From positions 300,566 to 364,565 of the forward strand of contig PBWH01000005.1 in the NCBI GenBank assembly GCA_002727195.1: a stretch of 64,000 nt of DNA, in the 5' to 3' direction. The position numbers and the translations under genes are program-made. The stretch's first letter is position 1; each line of letters starts with the position of its first letter. Source of the stretch: Gemmatimonadota bacterium. GTDB taxonomy: Bacteria; Latescibacterota; UBA2968. This document shows, in pieces, positions 16,708 to 33,876 of this stretch. The notes below the pieces were generated by a model that was given only the letters and a program-made list of their open reading frames with translations, ran no database searches and was not told the DNA's origin.

Positions 16708-17634
<927 letters not shown>

Positions 17635-17899: not shown

Positions 17900-18370
17900 C
17901 TACCTGTCTCCCCTGTCCTTCGAGCAGAAAGAAAGCCCTCGAGGAGATCAAGGAACGGGGTTTCGACGTCGTCATGCTCGAAATCCTGATGCCAGGGATG
18001 GATGGGCTTGAAACCCTCGAAAAGATCAAGCGCATTCGGCCCGATCGGGTCGTCATCGTGCTGACCGGACAGGGAAGCCTGGAGAGCGCGGTCGAAGCCA
18101 GTCGCCCGGGGGCATACGACTACCTGGAGAAACCGTCGACCCCGGAGGAGGTTCATCTCAGGATTCAGAAGGCCGTGGAGCACCAAGGGGTCAAGCAGAA
18201 GCTAGAAGACATCGAGTCGATGGTTGGAGACGACTTCAAAGACGTCGTCGGCAAGAGTCCGGCCATCGCGGAAGTCTTCGCTCTCGTTCGAAGGGTAGCC
18301 CCGACCAACAGCACGATTCTGATCACGGGTAAGACCGGCACGGGCAAGGAGTTGATCGCCAGTTCACCGA
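17900..18370 (+). pseudogene. 5' part of an NtrC-type sigma54 activator (REC plus start of AAA+), truncated
   Basis: [33 protein letters not shown]...[16 protein letters not shown]...[38 protein letters not shown] (Walker A) then homology stops. Confidence 0.85.
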
Positions 18371-18478
18371 TGCGGTGTCACAGAAGACGGGATACCAAGT
18401 ACAAACAAGCAGAGACACGGCTCCATCGGTCACTGTGGAGTAGATAAAGGTGTCTGTTAAAGTATAAAGGAGAAAAGA

Positions 18479-19012
18479 ATGAAAAAATTATTTCAAACTG
18501 TGTGTGAAACACCAATTAGTGCACCCAAAGAAGCATTCAATCTTCACGATTGGGTCTTCACCCTATCGGATAAGGACTACCAAACCACAGCACGCGGACA
18601 TATTGCTGCTGGATCAAGTATTCATACTGATGGAACACAAACGTCTGTCAATGTAGAGAGCGTTGGAGGAAACTTATTAGTCCAACATTATGTAGCAGAA
18701 GTTAAAGAACCTGATTACGTTAAGATGGTTTCTATGTCTGATCTTTGGTTAATGAAGCTAGTACATGTAGTTGTGAAAGTTACATGGGAAATGCGTCTAA
18801 TTTCTGTTTCTGAAAATGAATGTAAATTCCAAAACACCGTATTGGTAGAACATCCTTATTTCATTATGAAAATTTTGTCTGCTCTAGCATTAGGCGGTTA
18901 TTTTGTGAGAAAACATAATGAAGAAGAAACCCCTTTGTTTGCTCAAAACTTAGTCGACCTGACGCACTTGCCTTCGACCATCCAGGAGGGCGCTGCCCCC
19001 CAGATCAGGTAA
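18479..19012 (+). CDS. ORF of unknown family inside an AT-rich insertion; last ~20 codons derive from the host NtrC gene
   Basis: Own SD (aaaggagaaaagaATG); MKKLFQTVCETPISAPKEAFNLHDWVFTLSDKDYQTTARGHIAAGSSIHTDGTQTSV...; reads into LVDLTHLPSTIQEGAAPQIR, which looks like NtrC sequence. Confidence 0.6.
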   Translation: MKKLFQTVCETPISAPKEAFNLHDWVFTLSDKDYQTTARGHIAAGSSIHTDGTQTSVNVESVGGNLLVQHYVAEVKEPDYVKMVSMSDLWLMKLVHVVVKVTWEMRLISVSENECKFQNTVLVEHPYFIMKILSALALGGYFVRKHNEEETPLFAQNLVDLTHLPSTIQEGAAPQIR

Positions 19013-19198
19013 GTGTCGGGCTACTCGCATCTGTCGCTCCAGGAAGCCCGCGAATCATTCGAGCAGACCTACATCAAGGAAGTCCTAACCAAAACCAACG
19101 GAAACATCACCCACGCCTCGAAAATGGCTGGTATCGCCTGGCAGAACTTCCACCAGAAGCTCAAAAAATCCACGATCGACGCGAATCCCGTCAACTAG
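18950..19198 (+). pseudogene. 3' part of the NtrC-type regulator (Fis-type HTH)
   Basis: LVDLTHLPSTIQ...(in-frame TAA 19010)...LSLQEARESFEQTYIKEVLTKTNGNITHASKMAGIAWQNFHQKLKK. Confidence 0.85.
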
Positions 19199-19236: not shown

Positions 19237-19278
19237 CAAAAGGCCCTTCCGACTGACATCGGAAGGGCCTCCTTCTTT
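19237..19278. terminator. Bidirectional terminator between NtrC remnant and acnA
   Basis: 12-bp stem AGGCCCTTCCGA/TCGGAAGGGCCT with T-rich tracts on both sides. Confidence 0.85.
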
Positions 19279-19293
19279 TTCTGAACCTTCTGG

Positions 19294-21972
19294 CTAACTC
19301 TTCAGAAAGTTCCTGAGCACCGTGTGCAGAATCCCACCGTTGCGGTAGTAGTCCACCTCTACCGGCGTATCGATCCTGACCGTGGCCGTAAACGTCTTCT
19401 CTCCATCGTCACCAACGGCGGTGACTGTCACATCCTGCAGGGGTTTCAGATCACCCGCCACACCCGTGATCGAGATCGTCTCCTGTCCCTTCAGTCCGAG
19501 TGAAGAGACCGAATCGCCGTCCTTGAACTGAAGCGGCAACACACCCATCCCGACCAGGTTACTCCGGTGAATCCGTTCGAAGCTCTCCGCGATCACTGCC
19601 TGGATCCCCTGCAGTGCAGGACCCTTGGCCGCCCAATCGCGTGACGACCCCGTGCCATACTCCTTCCCCGCCAGCACGACCGACGGTGTGCCCTCATCGA
19701 CATACCGCATCGCGCAATCGTAGATGCTCATCTGTTCGCCGCTCGGGACGTGAACGGTCACGCCGCCTTCGGTACCGGGCGCCATCAGGTTCCGGATCCG
19801 GATGTTGGCAAACGTACCGCGCATCATCACCTCGTGATTCCCGCGACGGGAACCATACGAGTTGAAATCCTTCGGCTCGACGCCCTTCGAGATAAGATAC
19901 TGACCGGCAGGGCTGTCCACGGCGATACTACCGGCCGGTGAGATGTGATCGGTAGTCACCGAGTCGCCCAGGACGGCCAGCACGCAAGCGCCCTCGATAT
20001 CCGTGATGTCCGAAACGTCCGGTGTCAGATCCTTGAAGAACGGCGGCTCCTGGACGTAGGTACTGTCCGTGTTCCAGCCATAGATCTCAGCATCCTGCCC
20101 GGAGATCGCGTTCCACATCTCGTTCCCGTCGAACACATTGCCATAGCGCTCCGCGAACATCTCAGGCTTGAGTGACTGCGCAACCGTATCGGCGATCTCC
20201 TGCTGGCTCGGCCAGATCTCCTTGAGGAAGACGTCATTTCCGTCGCTGTCCTGCCCGATCGGCTCCTTCACCAGATCCACATCGACGCGACCGGCCAGTG
20301 CATATGCGACGACAAGAGGCGGTGAAGCGAGATAGTTGGCCTTTACGTGCGGGTTGACCCGCCCCTCGAAGTTCCGGTTACCGGACAGCACCGAGGCTGC
20401 CACCAGATCGCCTTCATTGATCGCTTCGACAACCGGCTCGGGAAGCGGACCGCTGTTCCCGATGCAGGTCGTACACCCATATCCCACAGTGTGAAATCCA
20501 AGCGTGTCGAGATGTTCAGTGAGCCCGGCCTCGTCCAAATAGTCTGTGACCACGCGCGAGCCCGGTGCCAGACTGGTCTTCACACACGAGGCGACCTTCA
20601 GCCCTCGCTGCGCGGCCTTCTTCGCCAGCAGACCGGCGGCCACCATCACCGACGGGTTGCTCGTGTTCGTGCAACTCGTGATCGCCGCAATAACGACCGC
20701 GCCGTGGCCGATAACCGATCCACCGTTGAGCGACACGTTCACCTGCTGCGTCCGCTGAGCGGCGTTCAATCCGAAACCGCTGTTCCCCACCGGTGCCTCG
20801 AGGGCGTCCTCGAAACCGGGACGCATCTCACTCAGCGGAATCCGATCCTGTGGCCGCTTGGGCCCGGCCAGGCTCGGCTCGATCGACGACAGATCCAGCT
20901 CCAGACCATCCGTGAACTCCGGCTCCGGGCTGTCATCCGTCCGATACAGTCCCTGCTCCTTCGCGTAGCGTTCGACGAGGTCGACCTCTTCAGGCGAACG
21001 ACTCGTGCGCTCCAGGTAGCGGAGGGTCTCGTCATCGATCGGGAAGTAGCCCATCGTGGCGCCATACTCCGGCGCCATGTTCGCGATCGTCGCCCGGTCG
21101 GCGAGAGACACACCGGTCAGGCCGGATCCGTAAAACTCGACGAACTTCCCGACCACACCCTTCTCGCGGAGCATCTGCACAACGGTCAGCGCGAGATCCG
21201 TTGCCGTCGCACCCTCGGGTAGTTGTCCATCCAGCTTGAACCCGATCACCTCGGGAGTCAGCATATAAATGGGTTGGCCAAGCATCACCGCCTCAGCCTC
21301 GATACCGCCCACACCCCATCCCAGGACACCCAGCCCGTTGATCATGGTTGTATGCGAGTCGGTCCCCACGAGACTGTCCGGAAACGCGACGCCGTCCCGA
21401 TTCACGACGCCCTTAGCCAGATATTCCAGGTTCACCTGGTGCACGATTCCTGTTGCCGGGGGGACGACCCTGAAACTCTCGAACGCGTTCGATCCCCAAC
21501 GCAGGAACTCGTAGCGCTCGTTGTTCCGCTCGAACTCGATTTCCGAATTCTGCTGGAGCGCCAGTGAGGATGCGAAGCGATCGACCTGAACCGAGTGGTC
21601 GACAACCAAGTCGGCGGGAATCAGCGGTTCGATCCGGGTCGGATCGCCGCCCAGGCGATCCATCGCGCTTCTCAACGCGGCCAGATCAACCAGAGAAGGA
21701 ACGCCCGTAAAGTCCTGGAGAACGACACGGGCGGGTTTGAAGGGAAGCTCGACCTGGGCAGGCGACTTGGCGTTCCAGCCGGCAAGGCCGGTTACGTCTT
21801 CCTCGTTGACCTGATACCCGTCCAGATTCCGGAGCGCTGCTTCGAGCAGGACCTTGATGCTCATTGGCAGTCTCGTCGTATCTACGTCCAGACGGTCGAG
21901 ACGATAGATGGTGACATCCCCGCCCTTGGTCTGGAGGGTGTCTTTAGAGTTCAGTGGATTATGGTCGCTCAT
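19294..21972 (-). CDS. acnA: Aconitate hydratase (AcnA type); likely start at 21972, ORF open to 22053
   Basis: [78 protein letters not shown]. Confidence 0.95.
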
Positions 21973-22167
21973 GTTTGGGCCTCGCGGGAGATGGATCGGA
22001 GGAGATCTCGATATTCGAAGATGAGACCTGCCGGCAGAACGCGAAAGCAGCATTCGTGTAACAAATGCCGGTCAGAAGTCTGGCTTGGCAACACGCCAAA
22101 TCTAGCTACATTGATAAATTATAAAAGCGAATCATTAGACTACTTTTCATTCTGATAAGGAATATAC

Positions 22168-29067: not shown

Positions 29068-29304
29068 TGCATTCTCACCATTTCAAGTAGCCGGAACCAG
29101 AACATGAGCGGCGGAAAATAGCGCGGCGAACTGAGAGTGGCAACCGAAACATGGAATTTGACACGGCCGCGCTCACGCCAGATTTTTTCGTTGCTTCGGC
29201 CCTCCACTGCCTACCGTGAGTCACGCTTGAGTCACAGACAGAAATACGACGATTTATCCAGGAACATCGTGGCAGTGCTTGCACGGAACGAAGCACCCAA
29301 CGCG

Positions 29305-29860
29305 ATGTTCACCCCGGCTGGCCAAGACCATCCTCGAGATCGTTCCTGTCTAGCGATTCAGCCTGGGCACCTCCGTACTCAATCGCTGGCATATCTACGA
29401 AAACGGCGAGACGGTTTTCGAGGAATACGTCAGTGGTACGCTCGCCCGTGGGTTCTCCGCGAGTGCCTAGGTGCTGGACAACGGCCAGCCCATCTACCGG
29501 AAGAGCCTCAAAGACGATCAACGGTTCGCTTTTGACGCGGAGATGATCCAGAAAGGGTAGGCGTCGGACCTGATCCTGCCCTTGAGGATCGGTGATATCA
29601 CCGTGGGGACCGCAAACTTCACCAGTCGACGGCCGGATGCCCTCCATCCCTGGCAATCAGCTCACCGAGAAGATCCGCAGGGTCGATCCTTCCATCCTCA
29701 ACATCCTCGTCTCCGGATGGGAGCGACGGACGAGTTACAAGCAACTCAGGCACTTCGACCTCCATATGCTCAAGCCGATCGAGAATCTCGAGGAGCTTCA
29801 CCAGATGATCGGTGATGCATTGCGAATCCGGGAGCGCCGACATCGTACCACGGGTTGAAT
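29305..29860 (+). pseudogene. GAF-domain sensor joined to a REC-domain remnant, several in-frame stops
   Basis: V*RFSLGTSVLNRWHIYENGETVFEEYVSGTLARGFSASA*VLDNGQPIYRKSLKDDQRFAFDAEMIQKG*ASDLILPLRIGDITVGTANF (GAF-like; TAG at 29351, 29468, 29558), then shifted MPSIPGNQLTEKIRRVDPSILNILVSGWE...LKPIENLEELHQMIGDAL (REC-like). Confidence 0.75.
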
Positions 29861-29938
29861 CCGGCCGGCTTGCATCAAAATTGACTGAACCGTAAATTCC
29901 TATCTTTCCAGACTTTACACCGCAACAGGGATGGCCAC

Positions 29939-30205
29939 TTGACGTTCGATTACAGCGTGCAAAACATCATTGACGGCCAGGGGATTCCAATCGTGATCAC
30001 CGGAATGGTGATCGTCTTTTTTGCCCTGACGTTGATCAGTCTGTTTATCGCCGCCCTGCCGCGCATCCTGGAGCGGATCGCCCAGCGTTGGCCCGAACCG
30101 GAGGGGCACCACCACAGCGCTCCAGCGGCCGCCCAGGCCGGGGTCACGGACGACGTCGTCGCGGCGATTGCTGTGGCTCTTCACCGTCGACGGGCCCGAG
30201 GTTAG
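29939..30205 (+). CDS. oadG: Na+-pumping decarboxylase gamma chain (OadG-like)
   Basis: Single TM GIPIVITGMVIVFFALTLISLFIAALPRI with His/Pro/Ala-rich tail, directly upstream of oadB. Confidence 0.75.
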   Translation: MTFDYSVQNIIDGQGIPIVITGMVIVFFALTLISLFIAALPRILERIAQRWPEPEGHHHSAPAAAQAGVTDDVVAAIAVALHRRRARG

Positions 30206-30209
30206 CAAA

Positions 30210-31337
30210 ATGGGCATCCTGTTTGAATTCCTGCACACCACGGGCTTCGCCCAGATGACGATCGGCAACATCGTAATGATCGTCATTGGCATCATCTTCA
30301 TCTCTCTCGCCATCACGAAAGACTACGAGCCCCTACTGCTGGTCCCGATCGGGTTCGGCATCATCGTCGGAAACATCGCCTACATCGATACGATGTCGCT
30401 CGGTGTGTATGACGAAGGCAGCGTCCTCTATTACATCTACTTCGGCGTCAGCCAGGGCATCTTCCCGCCGCTGATTTTCCTCGGCATCGGCGCGATGACC
30501 GACTTCTCGACGATGCTCTCGAACCCCAAGCTCATCCTGTTGGGTGCGGCCGCCCAGATCGGCATCTTTCTGACACTCATCGGCGCCCTCTACCTCGGGT
30601 TCAGTCCGAACGAGGCCGGTGCGATCGGGATCATCGGCGGTGCGGACGGGCCGACGGCCATTTTCCTGTCGGCCAAACTGGCCCCTCATTTGCTCGGAGC
30701 CATCGCGATCGCCGCCTACTCGTATATGGCGCTCGTCCCGGTCATCCAGCCCCCGATCATGAAGCTGCTGACCACGCGCGAGGAACGGCTCATTCGGATG
30801 CCGGACCCGCGCGCCATCTCGCGGCGGGAACGCATCATCTTCCCGATCGCCGCTTTCCTGATCGCGGCCATGATTGCGCCCGGATCGATCGCCCTGCTTG
30901 GTATGCTCTTCTTTGGCAACATACTCAAGGAATCCGGCGTCACCGAGCGGCTCGCCAACTCGGCGAGAAACGCGATGATCGACATTGTCACCATCCTGCT
31001 GGGTTTCTCCGTCGGCGCCAGCACCCAGGCGCAGACATTCCTGAAACCGGATTCGCTCCTCATCTTCGGACTCGGCGCTCTGTCATTCGGAATCGCCACG
31101 GCCGGTGGCATCCTGGGGGCGAAGTTTATGAACCTATTTCTGAAGCAGAAGATCAACCCCCTTATCGGCGCTGCCGGCGTGTCGGCCGTCCCGGATTCCG
31201 CGCGTGTGGTGCAAATGGTCGGTCAACAGGAGGACCCTCAGAACTACCTCCTGATGCACGCGATGGCCCCGAACGTCGCCGGCGTCGTCGGCTCGGCCAT
31301 TGGGGCCGGTATCCTTTGGTCCGTCCTGGTCAAATGA
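30210..31337 (+). CDS. oadB: Na+-translocating oxaloacetate/acyl-CoA decarboxylase beta subunit
   Basis: Multi-TM; GVSQGIFPPLIFLGIGAMTDFSTMLSNPK, GIIGGADGPTAIFLSAKLAP, GLGALSFGIATAGGILGAK; ATG at 30210 preferred over upstream ORF start 30168. Confidence 0.93.
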   Translation: MGILFEFLHTTGFAQMTIGNIVMIVIGIIFISLAITKDYEPLLLVPIGFGIIVGNIAYIDTMSLGVYDEGSVLYYIYFGVSQGIFPPLIFLGIGAMTDFSTMLSNPKLILLGAAAQIGIFLTLIGALYLGFSPNEAGAIGIIGGADGPTAIFLSAKLAPHLLGAIAIAAYSYMALVPVIQPPIMKLLTTREERLIRMPDPRAISRRERIIFPIAAFLIAAMIAPGSIALLGMLFFGNILKESGVTERLANSARNAMIDIVTILLGFSVGASTQAQTFLKPDSLLIFGLGALSFGIATAGGILGAKFMNLFLKQKINPLIGAAGVSAVPDSARVVQMVGQQEDPQNYLLMHAMAPNVAGVVGSAIGAGILWSVLVK

Positions 31338-31397
31338 TTCCGGTCGGCAGCGACTCTCCAGACAATGAGCGATGACTCCACGAGCTGAGGTGAAACC

Positions 31398-33185
31398 GTG
31401 AAAAAGAAAGTCACCTTCATGTGCACGGCGTTCCGCGACGGCTTCCAATCGGCCTACGGCGCCCGCGTGCTCACCAAGGATTTCCTCCCCGCCCTTGAGG
31501 CGGCCAGGGATGCCGGGATCGACTACTTCGAGGCAGGCGGTGGCGCGCGATTCCAGTCGCTCTACTTCTACTGCAACGAAGACGCTTTCGACATGATGGA
31601 CGCCTTCCGCGAGACGGCCGGGCCGGACGCCAACCTCCAGACGCTGTCCCGCGGTGTGAACGTGGTCGGTCTCGAATCGCAATCGAGCGACATTGTGAAT
31701 CTGCACGCGCTGATGTTCAAGAAGCACGGCATCACGACGATCCGGAATTTCGACGCCCTCAACGACGTCAACAACCTGATCCACAGTGGGAAGTGCATCG
31801 TGGACGCCGGCCTCAAGCATCAGGTCTGCGTGACGTTGATGGAGCTCCCCCCCGGCTGCGAGGGTGCCCACGACCCCGACTTCTACGAGCGGACGCTCCG
31901 TGAAATCCTGGACGCCGGCATCCCTTACGATTCGGTCTGCTTCAAGGACGCCTCCGGCACGGCAGTCCCTTCGAAGGTCCACGAAACCATCAAGCGTGCA
32001 CGGGCGATGCTCCCCGAGGGCACCTTCATCCACTTCCACACGCACGAGACGGCCGGCATATCGGTCCAGGCCAACATGGCCGCTCTGGATGCCGGGGCGG
32101 ACGCCATCGACCTGTCGCTGGCGCCGTGCTCTGGCGGAACCTGCCAGCCCGACGTGCTCGTGATGTGGCACGCTCTGCGTGGCTCTGATTACGATCTGGA
32201 TCTCGACATCGAAAAGGTTCGGGAAGCCGAAGAAGTCTTCAAAGAGTCGATGGCGGACTACTTCCTCCCTCCGGAAGCAACTGCAGTAGAACCGCTTATC
32301 CCCTGGAGCCCTATGCCGGGTGGCGCGTTAACGGCCAACACCCAGATGCTGCGCGACAACGGCATCATGGACCGCTACCCGGAGATGATCCGGGCGATGG
32401 GCGACGTCGTCCGGAAGGGCGGCTTCGGCACATCGGTCACGCCGGTCTCGCAGTTCTACTTCCAGCAAGCCTTCAACAACGTGATGTTCGGAGAATGGGA
32501 GCGGATCGCCGAGCCCTATGGCCAGATGGTCCTCGGCTACTTCGGGAAGACCCCGGCGATACCGGATCCGGAAGTCGTCAGGATCGCCTCGGAACAGCTG
32601 GAACTCGAGCATACGACGCAGCCGCCGCTCGAAAGAAACGACGCCGATCCGAACAAAGGCATTGAAGCGGCCAAAAAACAGCTCGAAGCAGAGAACTTGC
32701 CGACGACGGACGAGAACATCTTCATCGTCGCCGCGTGCAAAGAGAAGGGCCTCGCGTTCCTCAAGGGGGAAGGCGAAATCGGCGTTCGGAAAGTCGACCG
32801 ACAGGCCGAGGCGCCACCGACCGACGGACCTGCCAGCTACACCGTAACGGTTGACGGGAAATCGTTCCAGCTGTCGATCGACGGCGACCGGGCCACGGTG
32901 AACGGGAAGACGTATCAGGTCAGGCTTTCCGATGGCGAGACATCAGCCGCCGCTCCTTCCGCGGGAGGCGCGGGACAGGCGGTGACAGCTGAGATGCCGG
33001 GTAAGGTGATCCGGATCCTCGCTTCCCCGGGCAGCGCCGTCTCCGAAGGGGACCCGCTTCTCGTGTTGGAAGCCATGAAAATGGAAATGCAGATTGCTTC
33101 GCCCACCAGCGGTACCGTTCAGTCGGTCGACGTCTCAGAGGGAGAGCAAGTCACAGCCGGGGCCACACTTCTCACGATTGGTTAG
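31398..33185 (+). CDS. oadA: Oxaloacetate decarboxylase alpha subunit with C-terminal biotinyl domain
   Basis: FRDGFQSAYGARV carboxyltransferase start, CFKDASGTAVPSKVHETIK, FHTHETAGIS, biotin motif VLEAMKMEMQIASP. Confidence 0.92.
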   Translation: MKKKVTFMCTAFRDGFQSAYGARVLTKDFLPALEAARDAGIDYFEAGGGARFQSLYFYCNEDAFDMMDAFRETAGPDANLQTLSRGVNVVGLESQSSDIVNLHALMFKKHGITTIRNFDALNDVNNLIHSGKCIVDAGLKHQVCVTLMELPPGCEGAHDPDFYERTLREILDAGIPYDSVCFKDASGTAVPSKVHETIKRARAMLPEGTFIHFHTHETAGISVQANMAALDAGADAIDLSLAPCSGGTCQPDVLVMWHALRGSDYDLDLDIEKVREAEEVFKESMADYFLPPEATAVEPLIPWSPMPGGALTANTQMLRDNGIMDRYPEMIRAMGDVVRKGGFGTSVTPVSQFYFQQAFNNVMFGEWERIAEPYGQMVLGYFGKTPAIPDPEVVRIASEQLELEHTTQPPLERNDADPNKGIEAAKKQLEAENLPTTDENIFIVAACKEKGLAFLKGEGEIGVRKVDRQAEAPPTDGPASYTVTVDGKSFQLSIDGDRATVNGKTYQVRLSDGETSAAAPSAGGAGQAVTAEMPGKVIRILASPGSAVSEGDPLLVLEAMKMEMQIASPTSGTVQSVDVSEGEQVTAGATLLTIG

Positions 33186-33188
33186 GCC

Positions 33189-33876
33189 ATGACACCTGCA
33201 CTGCGTCTCTTGTTGGCGGTGTGTTTCGCCGTCTCGATACTAGGATTTGCCCACGTTGGCGCCTGGTTGCAGAAGAAGGACGGGGGCTACCTCAAGCTCT
33301 CGTATGCCACGTTCCGGTCGATCACCGTCTTCGACCAGAACGGCGACGCCGTGGACCTGAACGCCGGTGGCGTTTCCTCCGGCGACTACACCTACATCAG
33401 CTTCAACTCCTACCTTGAATAGGGGCTTCACGAGAAGCTCACGGTCATCGCGAACGTGCCCATCAAGCAGGCCAGCAAGACGGTCGACCGAACCGTCGGA
33501 CTCGGCGACCTGACGGCGGGCCTCCGGACACCCGTTCTGGATGGGCCGATCATCCTCCCGCTCAGCAGCTGCGTCAAGGTTCCTCTGTATGGTCAGAGCC
33601 AATCCTCGGCACCATCGCTCGGCACGGTGAATGTCGACGGCGATTCGCGAGTACTGATCTGTCGCAGCTTCTGGCCGATGCCTGCATATGGGACCGCCGA
33701 AATCGGGTATCGCCGGTGAGAACAGCCGGATCGATCCCTCGCTAGTGAACCTCGGATTTTGTCTGGGGCTGAAGACCGGGGAAATATCACTCACCGTTGA
33801 CGTGATTCACACCATCTCCGGCCGAAACACGGCCAAACGTACCTACCTGGCCGCAGGCGTCGCCCACAGCTGTTAG
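33189..33876 (+). pseudogene. Outer-membrane beta-barrel/transporter-like protein, in-frame TAG and later frameshift
   Basis: Frame of 33189 continues across TAG at 33420 (ISFNSYLE*GLHEKLTVIANVPIKQASKTVDRTVGLGDLTAGLRTPVL), then the 33688 frame near the C-terminus. Confidence 0.65.

Follow-up and report, generated by a model that had tools for sequence, protein, structure and literature searches.

The window, a stretch of 64,000 nucleotides, contains the remains of a recently lost gene for an NtrC-type regulator, into which illegitimate recombination probably brought a fragment of marine bacterial DNA of about 0.55 kb, at the expense of 444 bp of AAA+ coding sequence. The event is most likely real and of an ordinary kind: a random fragment, acquired horizontally, lodged in a pseudogene. 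The considerations that counted for this reading are gene lesions that are independent of the patch, fragment ends that do not fall on gene ends, and a donor gene that is scattered in its occurrence. If the join is real, the locus is a fresh and well-delimited case of a random, gene-sized scrap crossing distant bacterial lineages into a dying gene, captured before its base composition had adjusted.

The locus consists of NtrC-like pieces at both ends with AT-rich DNA between them. It is flanked on the left by a malate-dehydrogenase-like gene (16711-17634) and on the right by a convergent aconitase-like gene on the minus strand (19294-22053; open reading frames named from similarity recognised by eye). 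A consensus scan places a terminator-like stem-loop on the plus strand at 19241-19270, between the NtrC remnant and the aconitase-like gene. The aconitase neighbour fixes the orthology of the locus, as it also stands beside NtrC in two relatives, G001 and G019. In both of these, cytochrome b- and c-type genes lie upstream of NtrC; a search of the host genome (about 92% complete) for the upstream cytochrome gene of G001, run without a positive control, found nothing. The locus lies inside a 617-kb contig (G000:C32), and both of its flanks are colinear with one orthologous gene. The sampled part of this contig contains about 100 single ambiguous bases, which are clustered, for example at 29121-33798, 64700-74624 and 227353-260664.

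Base composition sets the locus apart. The G+C content falls to 36.5% over 400 bp, the lowest value in a 1.64-Mb sample of this genome (mean 59.2%, sd 3.05). The other AT dips in this sample are shallower (41-43%); on inspection of their ORFs they look like intergenic DNA or ordinary genes, and no gene-interrupting patch was recognised among them. Foreign patches as a general habit of this genome are disfavoured in this sample.

The initial annotation had described a receiver domain with Walker A that stops near 18360, AT-rich DNA after it, and NtrC homology that resumes near 18950. All of these are present, the first at 17929-18360 and the NtrC C-terminus at 18953-19198. The 5' part of the remnant (17929-18362, plus strand) comprises the receiver domain from residue ~37, the linker and the start of the AAA+ domain with a 12-residue Walker A sequence. 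It aligns with orthologues at 47-63% identity (tblastn), and profile searches of NCBIfam and Pfam match it to Response_reg and the start of Sigma54_activat. The native sequence was thought to end near 18360, but it continues in another frame: a frameshifting deletion of 112 bp at 18362/18363, just after Walker A, removes residues 181-218, and is followed at 18363-18395 (plus strand) by an 11-residue stretch from the region of the FTGA loop, 82% identical to residues 219-229 of the G001 protein. On its own this tblastn match has an E value of only 0.2, but it is colinear with the NtrC orthologue. The next ~30 bp (18396-18425) hold the left junction and align clearly neither with the NtrC orthologues nor with the closest donor relative. 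Beyond them, 148 AAA+ codons (residues 230-377) are absent. Alignment of the flanks to NtrC orthologues, proposed earlier as a means of sizing the replaced segment, gives 444 bp replaced by 557 bp. The 3' part (18953-19198, plus strand) carries the end of the AAA+ domain or linker and a Fis-type helix-turn-helix (HTH), at 59-63% identity by tblastn. The HTH is recognised by its profile in 19013-19195 (HTH_8, E 8.7e-8), but an in-frame TAA at 19010-19012 separates it from the upstream part.

By its sequence, this gene is a pseudogene, and the regulator is dead. Its receiver domain is not that of a functional sigma-54 activator: homology to the orthologues starts only at residue ~37, the start codon and ~37 N-terminal codons being missing, and the phospho-acceptor Asp is replaced by Glu (VVMLEILMP). 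A complete AAA+ domain would also have the GAFTGA loop, Walker B and the arginine fingers; here only Walker A is left, and the frame after it is shifted. The orthologue alignment thus agrees with the earlier proposal that the regulator is dead and its AAA+ core replaced by foreign DNA; that picture of a simple replacement was incomplete, given the further lesions, among them the missing N-terminal codons. It is important to note that, as the foreign insertion is not the sole lesion, the gene may have died from another cause than the replacement.

Full-length NtrC orthologues were found in G001, G003 and G004, which represent three other genera of the family, and in G019, a single genome from the order. 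The window copy shares with these NtrC-type sigma-54-dependent response regulators the domain order, the aconitase-side locus and the 47-63% identity of its remnants; it differs from them in lacking the start, part of the receiver domain and most of the AAA+ domain, and in having a frameshift and a stop. The remnants diverge from the orthologues mainly at third codon positions, and about as much as the orthologues diverge among themselves, so the loss of NtrC is recent on the scale of genera. Homologues with the same continuous domain layout as the window copy were sought in related genomes, since these would have spoken against a replacement, and none has this layout.

The G001 orthologue (sister genus; L003 1369-2745) is itself interrupted by an in-frame TAA within the receiver domain, and its Walker A reads GETGTVKE; this damage is apparently an independent loss. 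In genus g3 (11 genomes), no NtrC orthologue was found, only paralogues at ~43-44% identity. Such parallel decay or loss in G001 and g3 counts for capture in a gene that was being lost anyway.

Judged by its nucleotide matches, the segment at 18426-18952 (plus strand) is foreign and of marine bacterial origin. It consists of a leader and a truncated gene, and is 95.3% identical over 527 bp to L010, a sequence from the single-cell genome of an uncultured marine gammaproteobacterium of the OM182 clade. Other matches, at 78-92% identity, are labelled SAR86, Porticoccaceae, Halieaceae, OCS116, Hyphomicrobiales, Erythrobacter and Planctomycetota. A search of 63 further genomes from the host phylum found no relative of the segment. 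The idea of horizontal transfer, already raised in the initial annotation, is strengthened by this absence together with the close relative in an unrelated marine lineage. That account had a foreign insert between about 18360 and 18950; the foreign middle stands, but the donor-derived part is confined to 18426-18952, with a left boundary placed to within ~30 bp.

About 50 bp of leader in the window copy are common to L010. The gene that follows (18479-18952, plus strand) comprises the first 158 of 167 codons of its full-length relatives, and the last 9 codons and the stop are missing. From ends that ignore the ends of the gene, the segment is a chance fragment. Of the 15 codons at which window copy and L010 differ, 12 are synonymous changes. 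Towards the 3' end the window copy agrees with another marine allele, L014, instead of L010, which makes L010 a relative of the donor and not the donor itself.

The foreign gene is predicted to encode a protein of the SRPBCC/START fold. An AlphaFold2 model of the L010 protein (pLDDT 77) has the helix-grip fold characteristic of this group, as found with Foldseek. Compared with known SRPBCC/START-like proteins (the aromatase/cyclase ZhuI, 3tfz, and MSMEG_0129, 5z8o), the model reaches a Foldseek probability of 1.00 and a TM-score of up to 0.71 to ZhuI, whereas sequence identity is just 7-15% and no Pfam family matches convincingly. Searches of Pfam and NCBIfam with the insert protein returned only sub-threshold matches to NeuB/PseI; these were judged to be chance, and this identity was rejected. 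A sequence search of the PDB gave no match for the protein, and a search for RNA elements gave none in Rfam. In many marine genomes (L010-L025) the START-like gene adjoins different genes, with no visible mobile element. It is 84-90% identical between L010, L014 and L023, while their GlmS-like neighbours are only 49-51% identical. On these comparisons it looks like a frequent traveller among distant marine lineages.

An assembly chimera, in which DNA of a co-occurring marine bacterium was wrongly attached to the host contig and is absent from the real chromosome, is the main rival of capture, and we regard it as unlikely. In its favour, the foreign piece is short and very close to known marine sequence, and the scattered single ambiguous bases of this draft genome may suggest that several contigs, strains or samples were merged into one consensus. 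Cross-sample contig merging with Minimus2 has been described for one ocean set of metagenome-assembled genomes (PMC5769542), a set that may not include this genome. However, a chimera needs two joins inside one gene, both colinear with that gene, and the donor relatives and the host have no long shared word at either join. There is no ambiguous base in the 105.9 kb around the locus. The displaced native AAA+ piece is not found elsewhere in the genome, where the best matches are intact paralogues at 57% identity or less, and the rest of a 5-kb OM182 query finds nothing in the host genome. Finally, a chimera leaves the other lesions of the gene unexplained.

It is very unlikely that the insertion created a functional new gene, which would encode a START-like protein extended by an NtrC-derived tail and might be coupled to the HTH ORF of 61 residues. 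The frame of the fusion is fully open, its ATG is preceded by a Shine-Dalgarno-like AAGGAG, most of its codon differences from L010 are synonymous, and TAA and GTG abut at 19010-19015. But the START-like protein has lost its conserved C-terminal 9 residues, no sigma-70-like promoter was found, descent within the donor lineage would by itself produce the excess of synonymous differences, and recent arrival suffices to explain the open frame. A living two-gene unit, in which translation of the fusion would be coupled through TAAGTG at 19010 to that of a separate Fis-type HTH protein of 61 residues, is less credible still. The ORF at 18479-19012 (plus strand) had been taken for an unrelated ORF; the ORF list and alignments reveal no self-contained gene but an accidental fusion, in which the foreign gene, minus its end, runs on through 19 NtrC-derived codons to the in-frame TAA. 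This chimeric ORF is probably without function. For annotation, the locus is a warning against listing this ORF among the native genes, and the regulator is to be recorded as a pseudogene.

If a dedicated mobile element or cassette system had inserted the START-like gene, this would agree with the scatter of the donor gene over distant lineages, mostly beside different neighbours. Such an insertion is highly improbable, as the segment has no transposase or integrase and no terminal repeats beyond those of chance length, the copy lacks its 3' end, and host sequence was deleted at the target. Nothing that marks a transposon, an integron cassette or a prophage (terminal repeats, a recombinase, a matching element elsewhere) was found, in accordance with the initial annotation, which had noted neither transposase nor terminal repeat. 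A phage origin was discarded after tblastn and blastn searches against phages and a scan for viral contigs found nothing. A plasmid origin was likewise set aside: plasmids yielded only protein relatives below 60% identity and no DNA match.

Illegitimate capture of the fragment could have proceeded as follows. The DNA would have entered the cell as a free fragment, through transformation, as lysis debris or by an unseen vector. Its joining would have needed little or no homology and would have cost the host a comparable length of DNA. The event may have persisted in that the regulator was already dispensable, or simultaneously became so. As regards the host machinery, no match to Ku was found in the host genome, and non-homologous end joining was rejected on this ground. 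The only ComEC-like match in the host genome (G000:C3:93101-93487, L048) covers half of the profile and contains two TAG codons; it is possibly a pseudogene, and the competence of the host is uncertain.

Insertion-with-deletion events are already known, and are one route to chimeric ORFs. Homology-facilitated illegitimate recombination (HFIR) inserts ~1 kb on average and at the same time deletes a stretch of about that size; its illegitimate junction usually shows 3-10 bp of microhomology (PMC3240628). HFIR is described from Streptococcus pneumoniae, Acinetobacter baylyi and Pseudomonas stutzeri, and in E. coli genomes many small variable segments combine an insertion with a deletion (PMC3240628). 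Unlike HFIR, the window locus has no demonstrable homologous anchor on either side: with the relatives available, no homology between donor and host is seen beside either join, and the two agree over a few bases at most (TTA at 18950-18952). Like HFIR, the event couples a gain of 557 bp to a loss of 444 bp, with no recombinase and no repeats, and by this analogy we infer that the capture may be described as HFIR.
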